A stretch of 55,158 bases of DNA from Aquabacterium sp. (GTDB lineage: Bacteria > Pseudomonadota > Gammaproteobacteria > Burkholderiales > Burkholderiaceae_C), in contig NZ_JAIZVX010000007.1 of the NCBI RefSeq assembly GCF_021768455.1, forward strand, positions 1 through 55,158. Reading direction: 5' to 3'. The notes under the pieces were generated by a model. It was not told where the DNA came from. It made no database searches and saw only the letters and a list, made by a program, of their open reading frames with translations. Position 1 is the stretch's first letter, and the number at the start of each line of letters is the position of its first letter. The translations under genes were made by a program, and so were the position numbers. Positions 48,426 to 54,374 of the stretch are shown in pieces.

Positions 48426-48457
48426 AAAGCCCTGATGCGAAAGCGTCAGGGCTTTTT
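48426..48457 (+). terminator. Intrinsic terminator of the tRNA cluster
   Basis: A 13-base stem (48426-48438 with 48443-48455, one G-T pair) capped by a GAAA tetraloop and ending in five T residues. Confidence 0.92.
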
Positions 48458-48536
48458 GCTTTGCGCGCCTCGCTTTCCTGTGTGTTTGCGGGCCGTGGGT
48501 GCGTGCACCCGGACGGCGGCCAGTGTCCGTCCGGTT

Positions 48537-48552
48537 TGTGGGCAACGCGACA
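48537..48552. promoter_or_regulatory. Possible NifA-type upstream activator site (TGT-N10-ACA)
   Basis: TGT (48537-48539), ten bases, ACA (48550-48552) fits the NifA binding pattern. It lies 110 bases before a -24/-12-like element at 48662, a usual distance for NifA enhancer sites. A six-base fixed pattern can occur by chance in a stretch this long (roughly 6% for 250 bases), so this is suggestive only. Confidence 0.35.
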
Positions 48553-48661
48553 AAGGGCCCGTGGCAGGCCGTGGTCGCTCCTGGGCTTGTGGCTTGGTCT
48601 CGCGGCCGTTTCCCCAGGGAAAACGGGCTTCCTGGCCCCTGAAAGACCGGGTGTGATGCTC

Positions 48662-48676
48662 AGGTACAACAGTTGC
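48662..48676 (+). promoter_or_regulatory. Weak sigma-54 (-24/-12) element upstream of the hemoglobin gene
   Basis: AGGTAC-aacag-TTGC keeps the GG and GC at the required spacing and matches the consensus TGGCAC-N5-TTGC at eight of ten fixed positions. The predicted transcript start (about 48688) falls only two bases before ATG 48690, which would leave almost no leader. The element is therefore doubtful unless translation begins further in. Confidence 0.3.
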
Positions 48677-48689
48677 GGTCAGGCTGAGC

Positions 48690-49202
48690 ATGAGCCAGCC
48701 CCACCCCCACGCGACCTTGCCCGCCGTCACGGCGGCCCCGAGCAACGACCACTTCATCCGCCTGGGTGGGCACGCCGTGGTGGTTCGCCTGGTCGACGCG
48801 TTTTACCGCGCGATGGACACCTTGCCCGAGGCCGCGGCCGTGCGGGCCATGCACGAGCCCGATCTGGGGCCGACCAAGGCCGTGCTGGTCGCCTACCTCA
48901 GCGAATGGATGGGAGGGCCGAAGGCCTACACCCCCCAGCGCGGCGCACCGATGTTGCGCCGTCGCCACCAGCCTTTCCCCATTGATGCCGCGGCGCGTGA
49001 CGCCTGGATGGCCTGCATGCGACAGGCCTTGGCCCAGGAGTGCCCCGACGAGGGCCTGCGCGCCGAGCTCGACGCGGCCTTCTACAAGGTCGCCGACTTC
49101 ATTCGCAACACCGATGCCGGTGGGGACATGCGACCGCATCCCGGTCGGCCGCGTGAGGTGGCGCCCGGCCAGGTGGCTGCGCCGCACCAGTCCCAGACCT
49201 GA
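48690..49202 (+). CDS. Group II truncated hemoglobin
   Basis: A 170-residue heme protein of the 2/2 globin fold, likely to bind oxygen or detoxify nitric oxide in the cytosol. After a variable tail of about 20 residues, the core shows LVDAFYRAMDTLPEA, the proximal His in RRRHQPFPI and the group II Trp in RDAWMACMRQAL, together with YLSEWMGGPKAYT, a strong group II signature. The C-terminal 25 residues (DMRPHPGRPRE...) form a basic, Pro-rich extension outside the globin fold. It is the first of nine plus-strand genes with gaps of mostly under 60 bases. ATG 48690 has only a weak ribosome-binding sequence (AGG). Confidence 0.9.
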   Translation: MSQPHPHATLPAVTAAPSNDHFIRLGGHAVVVRLVDAFYRAMDTLPEAAAVRAMHEPDLGPTKAVLVAYLSEWMGGPKAYTPQRGAPMLRRRHQPFPIDAAARDAWMACMRQALAQECPDEGLRAELDAAFYKVADFIRNTDAGGDMRPHPGRPREVAPGQVAAPHQSQT

Positions 49203-49247
49203 TCCCCCTTGTTCCGTGTTTCCGCTCACCAACCAAGAAAGCCAACC

Positions 49248-49844
49248 ATGACCACCGCCGCCATCCAAAACACCGCCCTGGCCACCCTGGAGGCACAGGG
49301 CCGCTTGCTCAACAGTGTGCTCAAGGGCCCGACCAAAAAGCCCGGCCGCGTGGGTTTCCGCGGTGACATCGCCTTGAAGCTGGCCGAGAAGCGTGCCGAC
49401 GAGGCCCGCCCGCCGGAGATCAGCACAGACCAGATCATTGCGGCCGCTCAGGAAGGTGAAGACCACATCGCCTTCATCGCCGGCTTTCTGCTGAGTTTCG
49501 AGTACCTGCAGATGGTGGTCGACGTGCTGGGCACTGCGCTCTCGCCCAAGGGCAAGTACTTTTTCTATTGCGACAACATCGACCTCTCTAAGCGCTACCA
49601 GGTGACCCTGGGCCCGGCCACGTTCTACATCCTCCCGATCGACGAAGCCACGGTCTACAACGAGACCCTGGAGTTGCTGTATCTGGAAAAGAACGACCTG
49701 AAGAAGCTCGATACCGCGGGCAAGGTGGACGCCATCGTCGACAAGGCCGCCAGCTTCACGCAGACCTTCCCGAGCATCACCTTCGAAGAGGGTTGCAAGC
49801 TGATGGGCCCGGTGCGCAACCTTTACGAAAACCGCCCCGTCTGA
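49248..49844 (+). CDS. Hypothetical protein in redox cluster
   Basis: A 198-residue protein I do not recognise. It starts at ATG 49248; the frame is open 39 bases upstream but without a better start. There is no signal peptide or certain membrane segment, although a hydrophobic stretch lies at about residues 77-97 (IAFIAGFLLSFEYLQMVVDVL). Elsewhere it is rich in charged residues (KPGRVGFRGDIALKLAEKRADE) and has one Cys in FYCDNIDLSKRY. Codon use matches its neighbours. It sits 45 bases after the hemoglobin gene and nine bases before the nitroreductase gene, so it belongs to the same transcript. A partner or small-molecule binding role is possible but unproven. Confidence 0.75.
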   Translation: MTTAAIQNTALATLEAQGRLLNSVLKGPTKKPGRVGFRGDIALKLAEKRADEARPPEISTDQIIAAAQEGEDHIAFIAGFLLSFEYLQMVVDVLGTALSPKGKYFFYCDNIDLSKRYQVTLGPATFYILPIDEATVYNETLELLYLEKNDLKKLDTAGKVDAIVDKAASFTQTFPSITFEEGCKLMGPVRNLYENRPV

Positions 49845-49853
49845 GGACGCGCG

Positions 49854-51614
49854 ATGGCCAGCGCAGACGCCCAGGTCAAGGCCTACCATGAGCGCAGCAA
49901 GCACCGCTTGCAGCGCTATGCGGCCGGGCCCGAGACCCTGGACTGGGACGCCCAACCCGCGCCATTTCGGCGTTGGGATGGCGCCCCGGTGCGAAGGCTG
50001 CCCCTGGTTGCCGATGGCCTTTCGGCCAGCTGGGCAGGGGTGTTGGGCGTGACGGGCCATGACGCGCCGGCCGTGTGGCCCCTCTCGCTGCAGGCGGTGT
50101 CTGCCCTGCTGGAGCTCAGCTTCGGGCTCACGGCCTGGAAGCAGCAGGGGCCGGACCGCTGGGCCGTTCGGGCGAACCCCTCGAGCGGCAACCTGCACCC
50201 CACCGAGGCCTATGTGATGGCGCTGGGTGTGGCCGGTCTGGCCGATGGACTGTACCACTATGCGCCCTACGAGCACGCGCTGGTGCTCCGGCAGCCTTGG
50301 GCGATGCCGCTGGACGATGCGACCGGGCCCGGCGTGTGGGTGGGCTTGAGCTCGATCCAGTGGCGCGAAGCCTGGAAGTACGGCGAGCGGGCCTTTCGCT
50401 ATTGCCAGCTGGACGCGGGTCATGCCCTGGGAGGCCTGCGTTATGCGGCGTCCACCCTGGGGTGGCAGGCACGGCTGCTGCCCGCGCTGGACCACGCGAC
50501 CCTGGCCACGATGCTGGGTGTGGACCGCGATGCCGACTTCGGCAAGGCCGAGCGTGAGGAGGCGGAAATGCTGATCCGGGTGGGGCCTGGGGAGTTGGCC
50601 GAATGGACGGCCGAATCCACGGTCGACGCGCAGGGCAGCCTGTGGGCATTGCAGGCGCGGATGGCCGCCGCCTCGGGCGAATGGCAGGGGCAGGCCAGCC
50701 GGCTGGATGCCCACCCGATGTACCGCTGGCCGGTGATTGACGAGGTGGCCCGCGCCACCCGGGCCGTGTCGGCAGGGGAGGGGGGAGGTGGTGAGCAGAC
50801 GCCGTGTGGGATGGTTCCGATCGATCCAGATCCAGATCCAGATCCAGATCCAGATCCGGTGCCGGGGCTGGGCACAGGCTGGCGTCAGATGCCACCGGAC
50901 GTGCTGCCGCCTCGCTGGGGCCTGCCGGCCGCCGACCTGATCCGCGAGCGCCGCAGTGCGCAGCATTTCGACAAGCGTGCGCAGATGCCGGCTGGTGCGT
51001 TTTTCCGCCTGCTGGACGCGATCCTGCCCACAGCCGGGCTGCCTTTTGACGCCTGGCCGGCTGCGCCTTGTGTGCACCCGGTGCTGTTTGTGCACCGTGT
51101 GGAGGGCCTGACCCCCGGGGCCTATGTGCTGCCTCGTTCGCTGGACGGTGAGGCGCTCTTGCGCCAGCACCTGCAGACCGGTCAGGATTGGCAAAGCGTG
51201 GACGAGGCGCCCCAAGGGCTGCCGCTCTACCGTCTGGTGGCGCACCCCACCTTGTCGGGCACGCTGCGCACGCTGAGTTGCCATCAGGCCATCGCCAGCG
51301 ATGCCTGCTTTGCCGTGAGCCTGCTGGCCGAATTCGATGGGCCCGTCAGCGAGTCGCCCGCGCGCTACCGCACGCTGTTTCAGGAGTCGGGGCTGCTGGG
51401 GCAGGTGCTCTACATGCAGGCCGAGGCCGAGGGCTTCCGTGGCACGGGCATCGGCTGCTATTTCGACGACGCGGTGCACGAGTTGCTGGGCCTGCATGGC
51501 GATGGCCTGCAGGCGTTGTACCACTTCACCGTGGGGGCGCCGATCGTGGACGCACGCATCGGCTCCGAGCCCCCGTATGCCGGCCGCCCTGAGGTGAGCC
51601 TGAGCGATGCCTGA
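49854..51614 (+). CDS. SagB/ThcOx-type tandem nitroreductase-family protein
   Basis: A 586-residue flavoprotein-like protein with two nitroreductase-type halves. The first (about 75-260) shows ANPSSGNLHPTEAYVM and LDAGHALGGLRYAA, typical of the SagB/ThcOx group. The second (about 355-575) starts RERRSAQHFD (364-373) and ends with LYMQAEAEGFRGTGIGCYFDD. SagB proteins oxidise azolines in peptide toxins using FMN, but no peptide-precursor or cyclodehydratase gene is nearby, so the substrate here must be different. The linker between halves holds a hexanucleotide repeat (50823-50858) coding six Asp-Pro pairs at residues 324-335. Start ATG 49854 follows the previous stop by nine bases. Confidence 0.85.
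   Translation: MASADAQVKAYHERSKHRLQRYAAGPETLDWDAQPAPFRRWDGAPVRRLPLVADGLSASWAGVLGVTGHDAPAVWPLSLQAVSALLELSFGLTAWKQQGPDRWAVRANPSSGNLHPTEAYVMALGVAGLADGLYHYAPYEHALVLRQPWAMPLDDATGPGVWVGLSSIQWREAWKYGERAFRYCQLDAGHALGGLRYAASTLGWQARLLPALDHATLATMLGVDRDADFGKAEREEAEMLIRVGPGELAEWTAESTVDAQGSLWALQARMAAASGEWQGQASRLDAHPMYRWPVIDEVARATRAVSAGEGGGGEQTPCGMVPIDPDPDPDPDPDPVPGLGTGWRQMPPDVLPPRWGLPAADLIRERRSAQHFDKRAQMPAGAFFRLLDAILPTAGLPFDAWPAAPCVHPVLFVHRVEGLTPGAYVLPRSLDGEALLRQHLQTGQDWQSVDEAPQGLPLYRLVAHPTLSGTLRTLSCHQAIASDACFAVSLLAEFDGPVSESPARYRTLFQESGLLGQVLYMQAEAEGFRGTGIGCYFDDAVHELLGLHGDGLQALYHFTVGAPIVDARIGSEPPYAGRPEVSLSDA
50823..50858 (+). repeat. Hexanucleotide microsatellite in the nitroreductase gene
   Basis: Five copies of gatcca plus gatccg, in frame, encoding (Asp-Pro)6 in the linker between the two nitroreductase halves. 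Changes in copy number would alter linker length without shifting the frame. Confidence 0.95.
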
Positions 51615-51629
51615 ACCCCGGAGCCAAGG

Positions 51630-52472
51630 ATGAACGCCTCCACCCGATTCCTGCGCCTGAAGGCCCGTGATGCTGCCAGCTGGCTGGCCGCTCACCCTGA
51701 AGCCTTGCTGCTCGATGCCCGAGACGCGGCCCACCATGCCCGGGGCCATCTGCCCGGCAGCCAGCGCCTTGATGGTCGCAACCACGAGCGCCTGCTGCTG
51801 CGCGAAGACAAGCAGCGCCCGGTGTTCATCTATTGCTACCACGGCAATGCCAGCCAGACCTATGCCGAGATGTTCAGCGACTTCGGGTTCAACACCGTGG
51901 TGGACCTGATCGGCGGCTGGGAAGCCTGGGCCCAGGCGGGACCGCAGGCCTTGATCGACGCAGACCCGGACCAGGACCACGATGCGTTGTCACCGCAGCG
52001 GTCTTTGGCCAAAACCGAGCCCTTGTCGCCAGCCTTGGTCGACTGGCTGGCCGCCCACGCCTATCCCGATGTGCACACCCCGGGCGCGCATGGCAACACG
52101 CCCTTGATGGAGGCGGCCTGGCGCGGTGACCTGGCCATGGCCCAGGCCCTGCTGGCTCAGGGGGTGAGCCTGGAGGCCACCAATGGCGACGGCAACAATG
52201 CCCTGTGGCTGGCCTGTGTGTCGAACAAGCCGGAGCTGGTGACCTTGCTGGCCCAGGCGGGTGTGCCCATCGACCACCTCAATGCGACCGGCGCCACCAG
52301 CCTGATGTACGCCTCTTCCAGCAGCAAGCCGGGCATCGTCCGGGTCTTGCTGGACCTGGGGGCCGACCCGTTCATCGAGACCCAGGATGGGTTTTCGGCC
52401 ATGGACATGGCGGCCAGCCTGGAATGCCTTCAACTCCTGCGTGCGGCCACCCGGACTGGCGCACCGGCCTGA
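51630..52472 (+). CDS. Rhodanese domain fused to ankyrin repeats
   Basis: A 280-residue cytosolic protein. The rhodanese domain (about 1-110) has LLLDARDAAHHARGHLPGSQ and the active-site loop CYHGNAS with Cys69, so it is probably an active sulfurtransferase. After an acidic linker come at least three ankyrin repeats (about 145-265: HGNTPLMEAAWRGDLAMAQALL; NALWLACVSNKPELVTLL; GATSLMYASSSSKPGIVRVLL), likely for protein binding. A rhodanese gene (rhodN) also sits next to nifO in Azotobacter, a parallel to this locus. It lies 15 bases after the nitroreductase gene and nine bases before the ArsC-like gene. Confidence 0.9.
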   Translation: MNASTRFLRLKARDAASWLAAHPEALLLDARDAAHHARGHLPGSQRLDGRNHERLLLREDKQRPVFIYCYHGNASQTYAEMFSDFGFNTVVDLIGGWEAWAQAGPQALIDADPDQDHDALSPQRSLAKTEPLSPALVDWLAAHAYPDVHTPGAHGNTPLMEAAWRGDLAMAQALLAQGVSLEATNGDGNNALWLACVSNKPELVTLLAQAGVPIDHLNATGATSLMYASSSSKPGIVRVLLDLGADPFIETQDGFSAMDMAASLECLQLLRAATRTGAPA

Positions 52473-52481
52473 GCCTTGACC

Positions 52482-52937
52482 ATGACCCACCTTGTGTTCT
52501 ACGAGAAGCCTGGCTGCGGGGGCAATGCCCGGCAACGCGCCATGCTGGAGGCCGCGGGCCACACCCTGGAGCGACGCAGCCTGCTGGACGCGGCCTGGTC
52601 GCGCGAGACCTTGATGCCCTGTCTGCAGGGGCTGCCTGTGGCGCAGTGGTTCAACCGGGCGGCGCCCCGCGTGAAGTCGGGCGAGGTGGTGCCCGAGACC
52701 CTGGACGCCGAGGCCGCGCTGGACCTGCTGCTGGCCGAGCCCTTGTTGATCCGACGGCCGCTGATGCAGCGCCCCGATGGCGCGTGGATGGTGGGCTTCG
52801 AGGTGGCCGCGGTCGAAGACTTTGTGGGCCTGGGCCCATCGACATCGACATCGACATCGGCTTCGATGGAGGGCTGTGCTGCTGCGCCCGAAGTGGCCGC
52901 CCGTAGAGCTTGTCCGAGCCCTCATACCGCCGCCTGA
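52482..52937 (+). CDS. ArsC-like nitrogenase-associated protein (NifO type)
   Basis: A 151-residue member of the ArsC/Spx-like thioredoxin-fold group. ATG 52482 is chosen over a TTG six bases earlier. The sequence FYEKPGCGGNARQ places Cys12 where ArsC has its catalytic Cys, and WFNRAAPRVKSGEV with LLIRRPLMQ is the pattern of the nitrogenase-associated family (TIGR01616) named NifO in Azotobacter. NifO has been linked to the balance of nitrogenase and nitrate assimilation. The last 35 residues are unusual: a Ser-Thr run encoded by gacatc repeats (52841-52858) and a Cys/Ala-rich tail, beyond the normal family end. Confidence 0.85.
   Translation: MTHLVFYEKPGCGGNARQRAMLEAAGHTLERRSLLDAAWSRETLMPCLQGLPVAQWFNRAAPRVKSGEVVPETLDAEAALDLLLAEPLLIRRPLMQRPDGAWMVGFEVAAVEDFVGLGPSTSTSTSASMEGCAAAPEVAARRACPSPHTAA
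52841..52858 (+). repeat. Hexanucleotide repeat in the ArsC-like gene
   Basis: Three perfect copies of gacatc flanked by partial copies, coding STSTSTS near the C-terminus. It is the second six-base repeat in this cluster, with a different unit. Confidence 0.85.
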
Positions 52938-52985
52938 CGTCGGCATCCGTTTCCCCCACCCTCGACCCTGGAACAGGAGCACCCC

Positions 52986-53423
52986 ATGGACCTCGTCTAC
53001 AAAGCCCAGATGCTGACGCAAGGCGGCCGCACCGGCACAGTGCAGAGCGAAGACGGCAGCGTGAAACTCAAGCTGGCCGTGCCCGCGGCCATGGGCGGCA
53101 AGGGCGATGGCCCGAATCCGGAGCAGCTTTTCGCCGGGGCGTTTGCCGCCTGTTTCGAGCACTCGGTGCGCCACATTGCGAAGAAGGGGCACGTGCCGCT
53201 GCGGGGCTGTTACGTCGAGGCCGACCTGTCGATGTTCGTGACCTTCGAAGACGCCTACCGCATGGCCTTGACCCTGACCGTGCACATGGCCGGCAGCCTG
53301 AGCCAGGACGACGCCGACAACCTGATCGAGCGCGCCAAGGGCATCTGCCCTTATGTGGACGCGACCAAGAACAACGTGAGCCTGACCCTGAGCGCGGTGC
53401 TCGACACCCCGGTGACGGCTTGA
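52986..53423 (+). CDS. OsmC/Ohr-family peroxidase
   Basis: Thiol-dependent peroxidase of 145 residues expected to reduce organic hydroperoxides in the cytosol. The catalytic pair is Cys56 in FAACFEHSVR and Cys121 in KGICPYVDATKNN. GDGPNPEQLFAGAF is the usual Ohr-type helix start. The spacing of the cysteines and the length fit Ohr more than OsmC. GGAGC lies upstream of ATG 52986 (caggagcacccc). No OhrR-type regulator gene is next to it, so control probably comes from the cluster promoter. Confidence 0.92.
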   Translation: MDLVYKAQMLTQGGRTGTVQSEDGSVKLKLAVPAAMGGKGDGPNPEQLFAGAFAACFEHSVRHIAKKGHVPLRGCYVEADLSMFVTFEDAYRMALTLTVHMAGSLSQDDADNLIERAKGICPYVDATKNNVSLTLSAVLDTPVTA

Positions 53424-53447
53424 ATCCAGAGAAAGCGACCTTGCACC

Positions 53448-53687
53448 ATGAGCACGCCCGAAGGCTTTTTTGTGGACTGGAATGGCCACATCCGCACGAC
53501 GACCGACCCTGGCGGGGGGTATCTGTGTGACGTGGACACGGTGGCCCGTTACGTGGGGGTGACCACCAAGACGGGTACCCTGGTGCACGAGGCCACTTTC
53601 TACAAAGACATGGCCGCCATCGAGAAGGCTGGGATCAAGGCCAAGCTGGTGCCGGGCAGTCACCCCTGGGGCAATCCGGATGACTGA
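53448..53687 (+). CDS. Small hypothetical protein
   Basis: A 79-residue soluble protein I do not recognise, beginning MSTPEGFFVDWNGHIRT and ending HPWGNPDD. It contains several Gly, Tyr and Thr residues (DPGGGYLCDVDTVARYVGVTT) and one Cys. It overlaps the next gene by eight bases (atgactga), so the two are translationally coupled and probably work together. It follows the OsmC-type gene by 24 bases. Confidence 0.75.
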   Translation: MSTPEGFFVDWNGHIRTTTDPGGGYLCDVDTVARYVGVTTKTGTLVHEATFYKDMAAIEKAGIKAKLVPGSHPWGNPDD

Positions 53688-53949
53688 GGCGGCGTTGCGT
53701 TACTTCCTGACTTACCGTGGCGTGAGCCTGCCTCTGTGCATGGCCGAGGAGTTGGACCCCGAGGCCTTGCGCAACCGCAACACCTACTTCCGTGCGGCCT
53801 ATGACACCGCCGGCCGCATGCAGTGGGTGGAGAAGCTGGTGTATGGCGAGGTGGAGATGCGCCACGACTACCGCTATGGCGAAGACGGCACCCTGCGCGA
53901 AGCCACGGTGACCGAGCAGGACGAAGCGCCCCGCGTGCTGAGCCTGTGA
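53680..53949 (+). CDS. Small hypothetical protein, possibly DUF6156 family
   Basis: An 89-residue protein starting MTEAALRYFLTYRGVSLPL. It has a middle segment NRNTYFRAAYDTAGRMQWVEKLVYGEVEMRHDYRYGEDGTL that looks like beta strands of the YD-repeat style, here quoted only in part as its key residues are the Tyr, Asp and Arg of HDYRY and AAYDTAG. I associate it from memory with DUF6156, whose function is unknown. It overlaps the upstream small gene by eight bases. A strong hairpin follows 15 bases after its stop. Confidence 0.7.
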   Translation: MTEAALRYFLTYRGVSLPLCMAEELDPEALRNRNTYFRAAYDTAGRMQWVEKLVYGEVEMRHDYRYGEDGTLREATVTEQDEAPRVLSL

Positions 53950-53960
53950 AGGTGAAAGGA

Positions 53961-53999
53961 CATCGGCGCAAAGGGCCGATGCCATCGGGGTTTTGCGCC
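53961..53999 (+). promoter_or_regulatory. Overlapping alternative hairpins between two small genes
   Basis: Structure A: ggcgcaaa (53965-53972) pairs with tttgcgcc (53992-53999), with an inner stem ccgat/atcgg (53976-53980, 53984-53988). Structure B: catcggc (53961-53967) pairs with gccgatg (53975-53981). The two use the same bases and exclude each other. No T tract follows, so this may be an mRNA processing or attenuation element rather than a simple terminator. Confidence 0.55.
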
Positions 54000-54099
54000 A
54001 GATCAAAGACTCAGCATGCTCCTTGGATTAGGGCTCTTGCGTATCTTGAAGGCCTGGGCTTTCGCGGTGAGAGCCCCTCATCCATAGAGGAGTGTGACC

Positions 54100-54312
54100 A
54101 TGGCCATTCAGACTTTCGACATCGCGGCCGACAACGCAGCCGGTGTGCCTGCAGGCAGCTACGTGTCGGCCGAGGTGGCCACCCGGCTGGAGCAGTCTTT
54201 GTCCAAGCTGGTGTGGACGGTGTTGTACGGCAAGAGCTTTGACGCATCCGGTCTTGCGGTGGGCGCAGAGAAGCTGCTTTCCGATTTGCGCAAGGGCAAG
54301 TTGGCCGCCTGA
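54100..54312 (+). CDS. Small hypothetical protein at end of redox cluster
   Basis: A 70-residue soluble, Ala-rich protein I do not recognise. ATG 54100 is chosen because GAGGAG (54087-54092) is seven bases upstream; a GTG at 54094 would be too close. It begins MAIQTFDIAADNAAG and ends SDLRKGKLAA, with a predicted helix in SAEVATRLEQSLSKLVWTVLYGKSF. It stands 150 bases after the previous gene and behind a hairpin, so it may have its own promoter. A terminator follows. Confidence 0.7.
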   Translation: MAIQTFDIAADNAAGVPAGSYVSAEVATRLEQSLSKLVWTVLYGKSFDASGLAVGAEKLLSDLRKGKLAA

Positions 54313-54330
54313 GCGCCAGACGTCCATGCC

Positions 54331-54357
54331 AAGGGCGCCCGTGCGGCGCCTTTGCTT
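54331..54357 (+). terminator. Intrinsic terminator ending the redox cluster
   Basis: Arms aagggcgcc (54331-54339) and ggcgccttt (54345-54353) with one G-T pair and a five-base loop, followed by gcttttg. Confidence 0.75.
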
Positions 54358-54374
54358 TTGGCCGGGGCGAACAC

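Follow-up and report, generated by a model that had tools for sequence, protein, structure and literature searches.

The window analysed here is the whole of contig C283 (55158 bases) from a draft genome of Aquabacterium sp. (4.3 Mb in 316 contigs, 89.7% complete), and towards its right-hand end it carries nine open reading frames (ORFs), all on the + strand between 48690 and 54312. They are preceded by gltX and then by two Ala-Glu-Asp sets of tRNA genes followed by a terminator, behind which the original prediction, made from the sequence alone, had correctly placed the start of the cluster (Table 1). Profile searches bore out the redox and thiol families proposed there, namely a truncated haemoglobin (trHb), a tandem nitroreductase, a rhodanese-ankyrin fusion, a NifO protein and an Ohr-type OsmC protein. 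The 198-residue product of the second gene, referred to here as P2, had been left unrecognised and indeed matched no Pfam, NCBIfam or PHROG family; of three small proteins likewise left unrecognised, P7 and P9 matched no Pfam or NCBIfam family, whereas P8 belongs to DUF6156 (PF19653). The intergenic spacings are, in order, 45, 9, 15, 9, 48, 24, -8 and 150 bp, with start codons assigned by the first ATG for P2 (49248), NifO (52482) and the ninth gene (54100). The tight unit consists of eight genes, 48690-53949 (gaps of -8 to 48 bp); the ninth, P9, following the 150-bp gap and having no link to nitrogen fixation (nif) genes, is probably separate from it, and the earlier description of one closely packed unit holds for the eight but not for the ninth. 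A terminator had also been placed at the end of the cluster: the terminator scan returned none after the ninth gene, but a stem followed by a T-rich stretch is legible by eye 3' of it, at about 54330-54360.

The cluster is likely to be a relocated variant, lacking draT and draG (draTG), of a nifH-divergent accessory operon of the draTG type that is controlled by NifA and protects or tunes nitrogenase. Its identity as a nif-accessory operon under NifA is very likely, and protection or tuning is a plausible, moderately favoured description of its job. In many betaproteobacterial and some gammaproteobacterial diazotrophs, operons of the parent type lie divergent from nifHDK. This reading draws on gene content, linkage in relatives, promoter elements, a separate ancestry of P2 and an empty site in congeners, all taken from sequence. 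The cluster is not a one-of-a-kind set of genes but one form of a widespread operon in which draT and draG are often included.

Table 1. Features of the accessory gene cluster and its flanks (positions in the window).
Feature	Position	Strand	Basis
Terminator of the tRNA array, (Ala-Glu-Asp)x2	48426..48455	+	terminator scan
NifA upstream activator-type site TGT-N10-ACA, TGTGGGCAACGCGACA	48537..48552	+	motif scan
Sigma-54 type -24/-12 element, CAGGTACAACAGTTGCG	48661..48677	+	motif scan
Group II truncated haemoglobin (trHb), 170 aa	48690..49202	+	Bac_globin match, PDB relatives
P2, nif-associated protein without a name, 198 aa	49248..49844	+	no family matched
SagB-type tandem nitroreductase, 586 aa	49854..51614	+	TIGR03605
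GlpE-like rhodanese-ankyrin fusion protein, 280 aa	51630..52472	+	profile matches
NifO/DraB-type nitrogenase-associated ArsC-like protein, 151 aa	52482..52937	+	TIGR01616
Ohr-type organic hydroperoxide reductase (OsmC protein), 145 aa	52986..53423	+	TIGR03561
P7, small protein of 79 aa with a conserved DPGGGYxC core, without family	53448..53687	+	
P8, DUF6156 protein, 89 aa	53680..53949	+	PF19653
P9, small protein without family, 70 aa	54100..54312	+	
DUF2779 gene, convergent with the cluster, at contig end	54375..55151	-	

Nitrogenase genes, whose search had been proposed as a check, are present on another contig of the same genome, C107, which holds nifHDK, nifEN, nifB and nifA: nifH, nifK, nifE, nifN, nifB and nifA were each above the profile cut-off, and nifD was identified by ORF position and similarity to the loci of relatives. 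A second P2 gene lies there divergent from nifH, its product sharing 60% identity with the window P2, and its immediate neighbourhood yielded no haemoglobin, draT or draG relative. Across 200 genomes of the family, 12 of them nifH-positive by cut-off, P2 was found in 13, comprising all 12 nifH-positive genomes and G008, a 65% complete draft in which nifB is present and the P2 contig begins beside a nif-type promoter pair; with G008 scored as nif-negative, the association of P2 with nifH has a Fisher p of 2e-18. A congener without nifH, G033, has no P2. Above-cut-off matches to TIGR01616, the NifO model, occur in 9/12 nifH-positive genomes and in 2/188 others (G008 and G052), DUF6156 in 5/12 and 2/188 (the same two genomes), and P7 in 2/12 and 0/188, while nitroreductase relatives at E below 1e-80, a cut picked afterwards, were found in 7/12 and 1/188.

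G052 is the sole apparent case of the kind that had been named as contrary evidence, a genome holding the cluster without nif genes, as neither nifH nor nifB was found in its draft. Its cluster contig, however, ends about 120 bp beyond a nifH-type promoter whose sigma-54 element faces the missing side, and 77 bp at the contig end show 82% identity to the nifH leader of a related locus, L031. Because of this resemblance and of the sigma-54 element, the G052 cluster appears to be nifH-divergent too, and it was provisionally set aside as a counterexample.

For the promoter of the window operon, the NifA-type site TGTGGGCAACGCGACA and the sigma-54 element CAGGTACAACAGTTGCG both lie in the 234-bp interval that separates trHb from the tRNA terminator. 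The former is one of three TGT-N10-ACA sequences in the window, and the combination of this upstream activator sequence with a sigma-54 element occurs as a pair only before trHb. The same scan of C107 returned three pairs, which mark nifH, the second P2 and the 5' end of the nifB ORF; 0.25 pairs per 55 kb are expected in first-order random sequence, and 181 kb of control loci yielded a single pair, overlying a tRNA gene in L115. Both elements were identified in 36 of the 49 nif-linked relatives with a trHb gene, and a GGTAY...TTGC element precedes trHb in many nif-linked relatives. In the window, only 12 nt separate the end of the sigma-54 element from the trHb ATG, so that transcription would begin at or beside that codon and give a leaderless mRNA, unless the true start lies further in. 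With its own promoter of the NifA-site/sigma-54 type, the operon should switch on together with nitrogenase.

The genomic context of P2 relatives is dominated by nifH. From 125 relatives found in named genomes, the best 80 were kept as loci; they include members of Ideonella, Rubrivivax, Sphaerotilus, Methyloversatilis, Zoogloea, Hydrogenophaga and Azohydromonas, as well as Methylotenera, Acidithiobacillus, methanotrophs and others. nifH is present in 69/80 of these loci and divergent in 68, at a median distance of 862 bp. Three of the 11 loci without nifH (L059, L067 and L068) start less than 1 kb before P2, and the other eight have nifH in the host genome (five), a nifH piece at the contig end (one) or nifB (two). 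L061 and L079 show no nif genes in the fetched stretch and have a distant haemoglobin relative (43-44%) downstream of P2, not upstream; nifB is present elsewhere in the genome for L061 and nifH for L079. Ten plasmid records add Paraburkholderia, Cupriavidus, Methylococcus and Bradyrhizobium: two Bradyrhizobium plasmids have an iscA-nifU-nifS row, not nifH, divergent to P2, and in the 16.6 kb read of a Cupriavidus plasmid no nif gene was found.

Among the 70 of these 80 loci with at least 2.5 kb downstream of P2, draT and draG both follow P2 in 44, and draT starts within 600 bp of P2 in 43; in the examples scanned, Pfam DRAT and TIGR02662 were above cut-off, confirming draT and draG. In Sphaerotilus hippei, Hydrogenophaga and G133 the gene order is trHb-P2-draT-draG-nitroreductase-(rhodanese/ankyrin)-NifO-Zn ribbon-(Ohr)-(P7)-(P8). 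L031 and L032, to which the window copy is most closely related, are linked to nifH and are also without draTG. No match to draT or draG was found in the window or on C107, to which this search was confined, and the window cluster does not qualify as a draTGB operon by that measure. G181, in which a draTG-nitroreductase-NifO-DUF6156 block lies 1.1 Mb from nifH-trHb-P2, is an independent case of detachment. The accessory operon is thus modular, as it can be without draTG, can leave nifH and can retain a nif-type promoter at a new site. Two nifH-trHb-P2 loci coexist in the metagenome-assembled genome E10_concoct.bin.30_sub, L048 with draTG and L032 without.

Published expression data are available for Paraburkholderia phymatum STM815, which has two nearly identical P2 genes, BPHY_RS38250 (Bphy_7752) and BPHY_RS38505 (Bphy_7807), each with 56% identity to the window P2 and each divergent from a nifH gene. 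Of these two loci (L119 and L123), that of the second nifH has its divergent P2 although no more than a piece of nifD adjoins this nifH. In bean nodules of the nifA mutant relative to wild type, the accessible table reports log2 changes of -11.54 for Bphy_7752 and -11.11 for Bphy_7807, as compared with -10.05 for nifD and -7.40 for nifH (PMC8305402). The two P2 genes are the largest numerical drops in that sorted table, which seems limited to the symbiotic plasmid and in which NA rows (zero mutant reads) follow; the genes behind Bphy_7752, encoding an ankyrin protein and a Zn ribbon protein, changed by log2 -7.11 and -7.72, respectively (PMC8305402). The accessible part of that study mentions no mutant of P2. 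A link to nitrogenase had been offered as a guess and is now well supported, by nif genes in the genome, co-occurrence, neighbourhood, the NifA/sigma-54 type promoter and the tabulated NifA dependence of P2 relatives (PMC8305402).

Several known systems resemble parts of the cluster, and P. phymatum provides one of them: on pBPHY02, Bphy_7752-7750 comprise a nifH-divergent P2 gene (56% identity) and then an ankyrin and a Zn ribbon gene, with strong NifA dependence in the table cited (PMC8305402), but no trHb, nitroreductase or NifO relative was detected beside P2, which is annotated as a hypothetical protein. On a plasmid of Methylococcus sp. EFPC2, nifHDK is divergent from a trHb-P2-...-ArsC/NifO-nitroreductase-GlpE rhodanese-...-ankyrin row; here rhodanese and ankyrin are encoded separately, the row also includes genes for a response regulator and a Rieske protein, and no Ohr, P7 or P8 relative was detected. 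The draTGB operon of Azospirillum and Rhodospirillum, which is located beside nifH, likewise has a NifO/DraB-type gene in an operon with nitrogenase-regulating genes, and many relatives of the window operon have draT and draG behind P2. The window copy differs in being without draT and draG, in not lying beside nifH, and in adding trHb, P2, the tandem nitroreductase, rhodanese-ankyrin, Ohr, P7 and DUF6156. In Azotobacter vinelandii a NifO-type protein is also encoded in a nif operon, nifB-fdxN-nifO-nifQ, and a rhodanese gene is located there. Another example of a haemoglobin gene between nif genes is glbN of Nostoc, which is cyanobacterial, belongs to another haemoglobin group and has different neighbours. 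The available part of one study describes draB as nifO-like in the Azospirillum draTGB operon (draT, draG, draB/nifO) and gives the A. vinelandii operon as nifB-fdxN-nifO-nifQ; for the latter, that part makes no mention of P2, trHb, nitroreductase, Ohr or DUF6156 (PMC5249018).

With respect to its present location, the cluster occupies a site that is empty in congeners. Eight congener loci were fetched, of which L116 was too short and seven (L111-L115, L117 and L118) were judged: gltX and the tRNA array are present in 7/7, with a single tRNA set in L114, and no relative of any cluster protein was detectable in the fetched stretch of any of them. Similarity to the congeners stops at 48459-48469; with the NifA site beginning at 48537, the left junction falls in an interval of about 78 bp. 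A tree of 94 P2 sequences joins the C107 copy as a pair to the P2 of a congener, G159 (99/63), inside a starred three-member clade (100/95), whereas the window P2 belongs to an 18-row clade (99/93) with Ideonella, Rubrivivax, Sphaerotilus, Rhizobacter and others; by this tree, the two P2 copies are of separate ancestry. The simplest reading of the origin, and a reasonably probable one, is arrival by horizontal transfer from a nif region of the Ideonella/Sphaerotilus type, an old duplication with losses being the alternative. The guanine-cytosine and tetranucleotide content matches the contig, but the test is weak because the loci of relatives score nearly as high. An integrative island with a duplicated tRNA target was considered and dropped, as no second tRNA-Asp 3' end occurs between the cluster and the contig end; the contig extends only 846 bp beyond the ninth gene, and an attachment site may lie further on.

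On the proposed mechanism, once NifA is active the haemoglobin would lower free O2 or NO around nitrogenase, Ohr would remove organic peroxides, the rhodanese would pass on sulfane sulfur, and NifO/DraB would affect molybdenum routing or the DraG step, with the tandem flavoprotein (the nitroreductase) supplying or consuming reducing power in that chemistry. P2 would act directly on nitrogenase, its most likely target being the Fe protein, whose gene P2 usually adjoins; an action of P2 on the Fe protein is proposed tentatively. That a single operon of the NifA type encodes a haemoglobin, a peroxidase and a sulfur-transfer protein bears on the question of how nitrogenase is kept functional in aerobic diazotrophs, which is of practical relevance when nif genes are moved into new hosts.

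For P2 itself, structure prediction gave an alpha/beta fold with a mean predicted local distance difference test score (pLDDT) of 92.1 and no clear match in the PDB. Every P2-bearing genome checked here for nif genes has them, adjoining P2 or elsewhere, yet the protein is without a name, a matched family or a recognised fold. No title or abstract retrieved from the open-access literature dealt with this operon, and no paper was retrieved for DUF6156, although subscription journals may hold an earlier description, and P2 appears there only as a 'hypothetical protein' in the accessible table of one study (PMC8305402). It is quite possible, though somewhat less than even in our judgement, that P2 is a nitrogenase-dedicated proteobacterial protein with a fold new to solved structures, acting directly on the Fe protein or on how it is regulated, and that trHb-P2 is the core of a widespread NifA-driven module able to travel without nifHDK or draTG. 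Being tied to nif, usually divergent from nifH, strongly NifA-dependent in a relative and still without a name, P2 makes a missing nitrogenase factor directly testable.

A number of observations weigh against the interpretation as a relocated, NifA-controlled accessory operon. The threshold of the pair scan was the window site's own score (10.5), set after the site had been seen, and its weights came from a general consensus; the sigma-54 score of the window, at 10.5, is below that of most relatives having the element, and 13 of the 49 nif-linked trHb relatives fail one or both elements. No pair was found in the detached G181 block (L022) or at the second nifH-P2 locus of P. phymatum (L119), and one is present in L024, a G052 stretch without detected nif genes. 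Co-occurrence of all nine families with nif, earlier proposed as a check, was borne out for the core families, which travel together, but P9 (1/12 nifH-positive genomes and 1/188 others) shows no nif link, and the nitroreductase is not bound to nif, with relatives in the nifH-less genomes G197 and G090. Expression or mutant evidence consists of the P. phymatum transcriptome, none having been found for the source organism, and the read counts of the two P2 genes there are perhaps not independent, given how little these copies differ in sequence. In a draft of 316 contigs and 89.7% completeness, misassembly at the repeated tRNA genes is also possible.

Three other explanations of the cluster were weighed. 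It is improbable that the cluster is a decaying relic, that is, a foreign nif fragment that came without nifHDK or draTG and is now idle as the resident nif locus has its own P2: the absence of draTG from both the window and C107, the second P2 at nifH and a sigma-54 element weaker than in most relatives having it would fit such decay, yet all eight frames are open and tightly spaced, the stretches with the presumed catalytic or haem-binding residues are retained, and promoter and NifA site are in place. The absence of draTG alone does not indicate decay, since L031 and L032, which are at nifH, are without draTG as well. There is also little probability that the genes form an operon against oxidative, nitrosative or thiol stress in general, one that nitrogen fixation has recruited but to which it is not dedicated. 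Ohr, truncated haemoglobins and rhodaneses are general stress families, and nitroreductase relatives occur in genomes without nifH; against this, P2 and above-cut-off NifO track nif across the 200 genomes, the promoter is of the NifA type and, as far as the accessible table shows, the P. phymatum P2 genes need NifA (PMC8305402). An assembly artefact joining the nif operon of another organism to a gltX-tRNA contig appears equally unlikely: while the draft is in 316 contigs, the join lies behind repeated tRNA genes and the window P2 groups with other genera, relatives' operons have nifH, not tRNA-Asp, on that side (69/80 loci), so that no shared repeat is seen to offer a mis-join, the composition fits the contig by a weak test, and the DUF2779 neighbour is kept, as in G052 and Sphaerotilus. 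A phage origin and a defence system were also set aside, as the PHROG search had no hit for P2, P8 or P9 and none better than E 0.16 for P7, and a PADLOC scan of seven proteins returned ankyrin-repeat matches only.

Among the cluster proteins other than P2, trHb has 2xyk as its best PDB relative and also matched 4uur and HbO 1ngk, all presumably group II truncated haemoglobins. Its Y39, H93 and W106, which we take to be the helix-B Tyr, proximal His and helix-G Trp, are invariant in eight aligned sequences (window included; three annotated group II). The tandem nitroreductase scored 106.1 bits with TIGR03605 (cut-off 78.4), which assigns it to the SagB/ThcOx type, and its two halves are joined by a low-complexity linker that is variable in relatives too; in the window, a (GATCCA)5.8 tandem repeat at 50823-50857 encodes a DPDPDPDP linker between the halves. 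A peptide-modification cluster was considered on account of the SagB match and dropped, there being no precursor or cyclodehydratase among the nine cluster proteins: the scan with cyclodehydratase and precursor-peptide models covered the cluster proteins and matched none of the other eight. A peptide (azole) role for the nitroreductase looks unlikely. The rhodanese-ankyrin protein matched the GlpE model below cut-off. Ohr scored 124.4 bits with TIGR03561 (cut-off 88.85), and both of its Cys-containing stretches align with 6mjn, the two cysteines presumably being the residues with known Ohr roles. P9 was found in the 200 genomes only in G052 besides the window genome.

NifO scored 143.6 bits with TIGR01616 (cut-off 109), placing it in that family. 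A (CATCGA)3.8 tandem repeat at 52837-52859 encodes an STSTSTS stretch near its C-terminus, and the G177 protein (L015) has an STSTST run of its own. In G052 the NifO gene (L024, 1675-2112 onward) lies apart from the rest of the cluster, next to genes that, as named by eye from their translations, resemble molybdate transport and ModE-type genes, which would suit a role connected with molybdenum. In G168 a short NifO-like fragment (profile positions 1-30, with an internal TGA), possibly a decayed NifO gene, lies beyond nifK, near 2862 of L011. For the DUF2779 gene that ends the contig, we know of no tie to nitrogen fixation; relatives of it stand beside the same kind of cluster in G052 (L023) and Sphaerotilus hippei (L018/L033, one genome), and near the cluster in two Ideonella genomes (L046 and L047).

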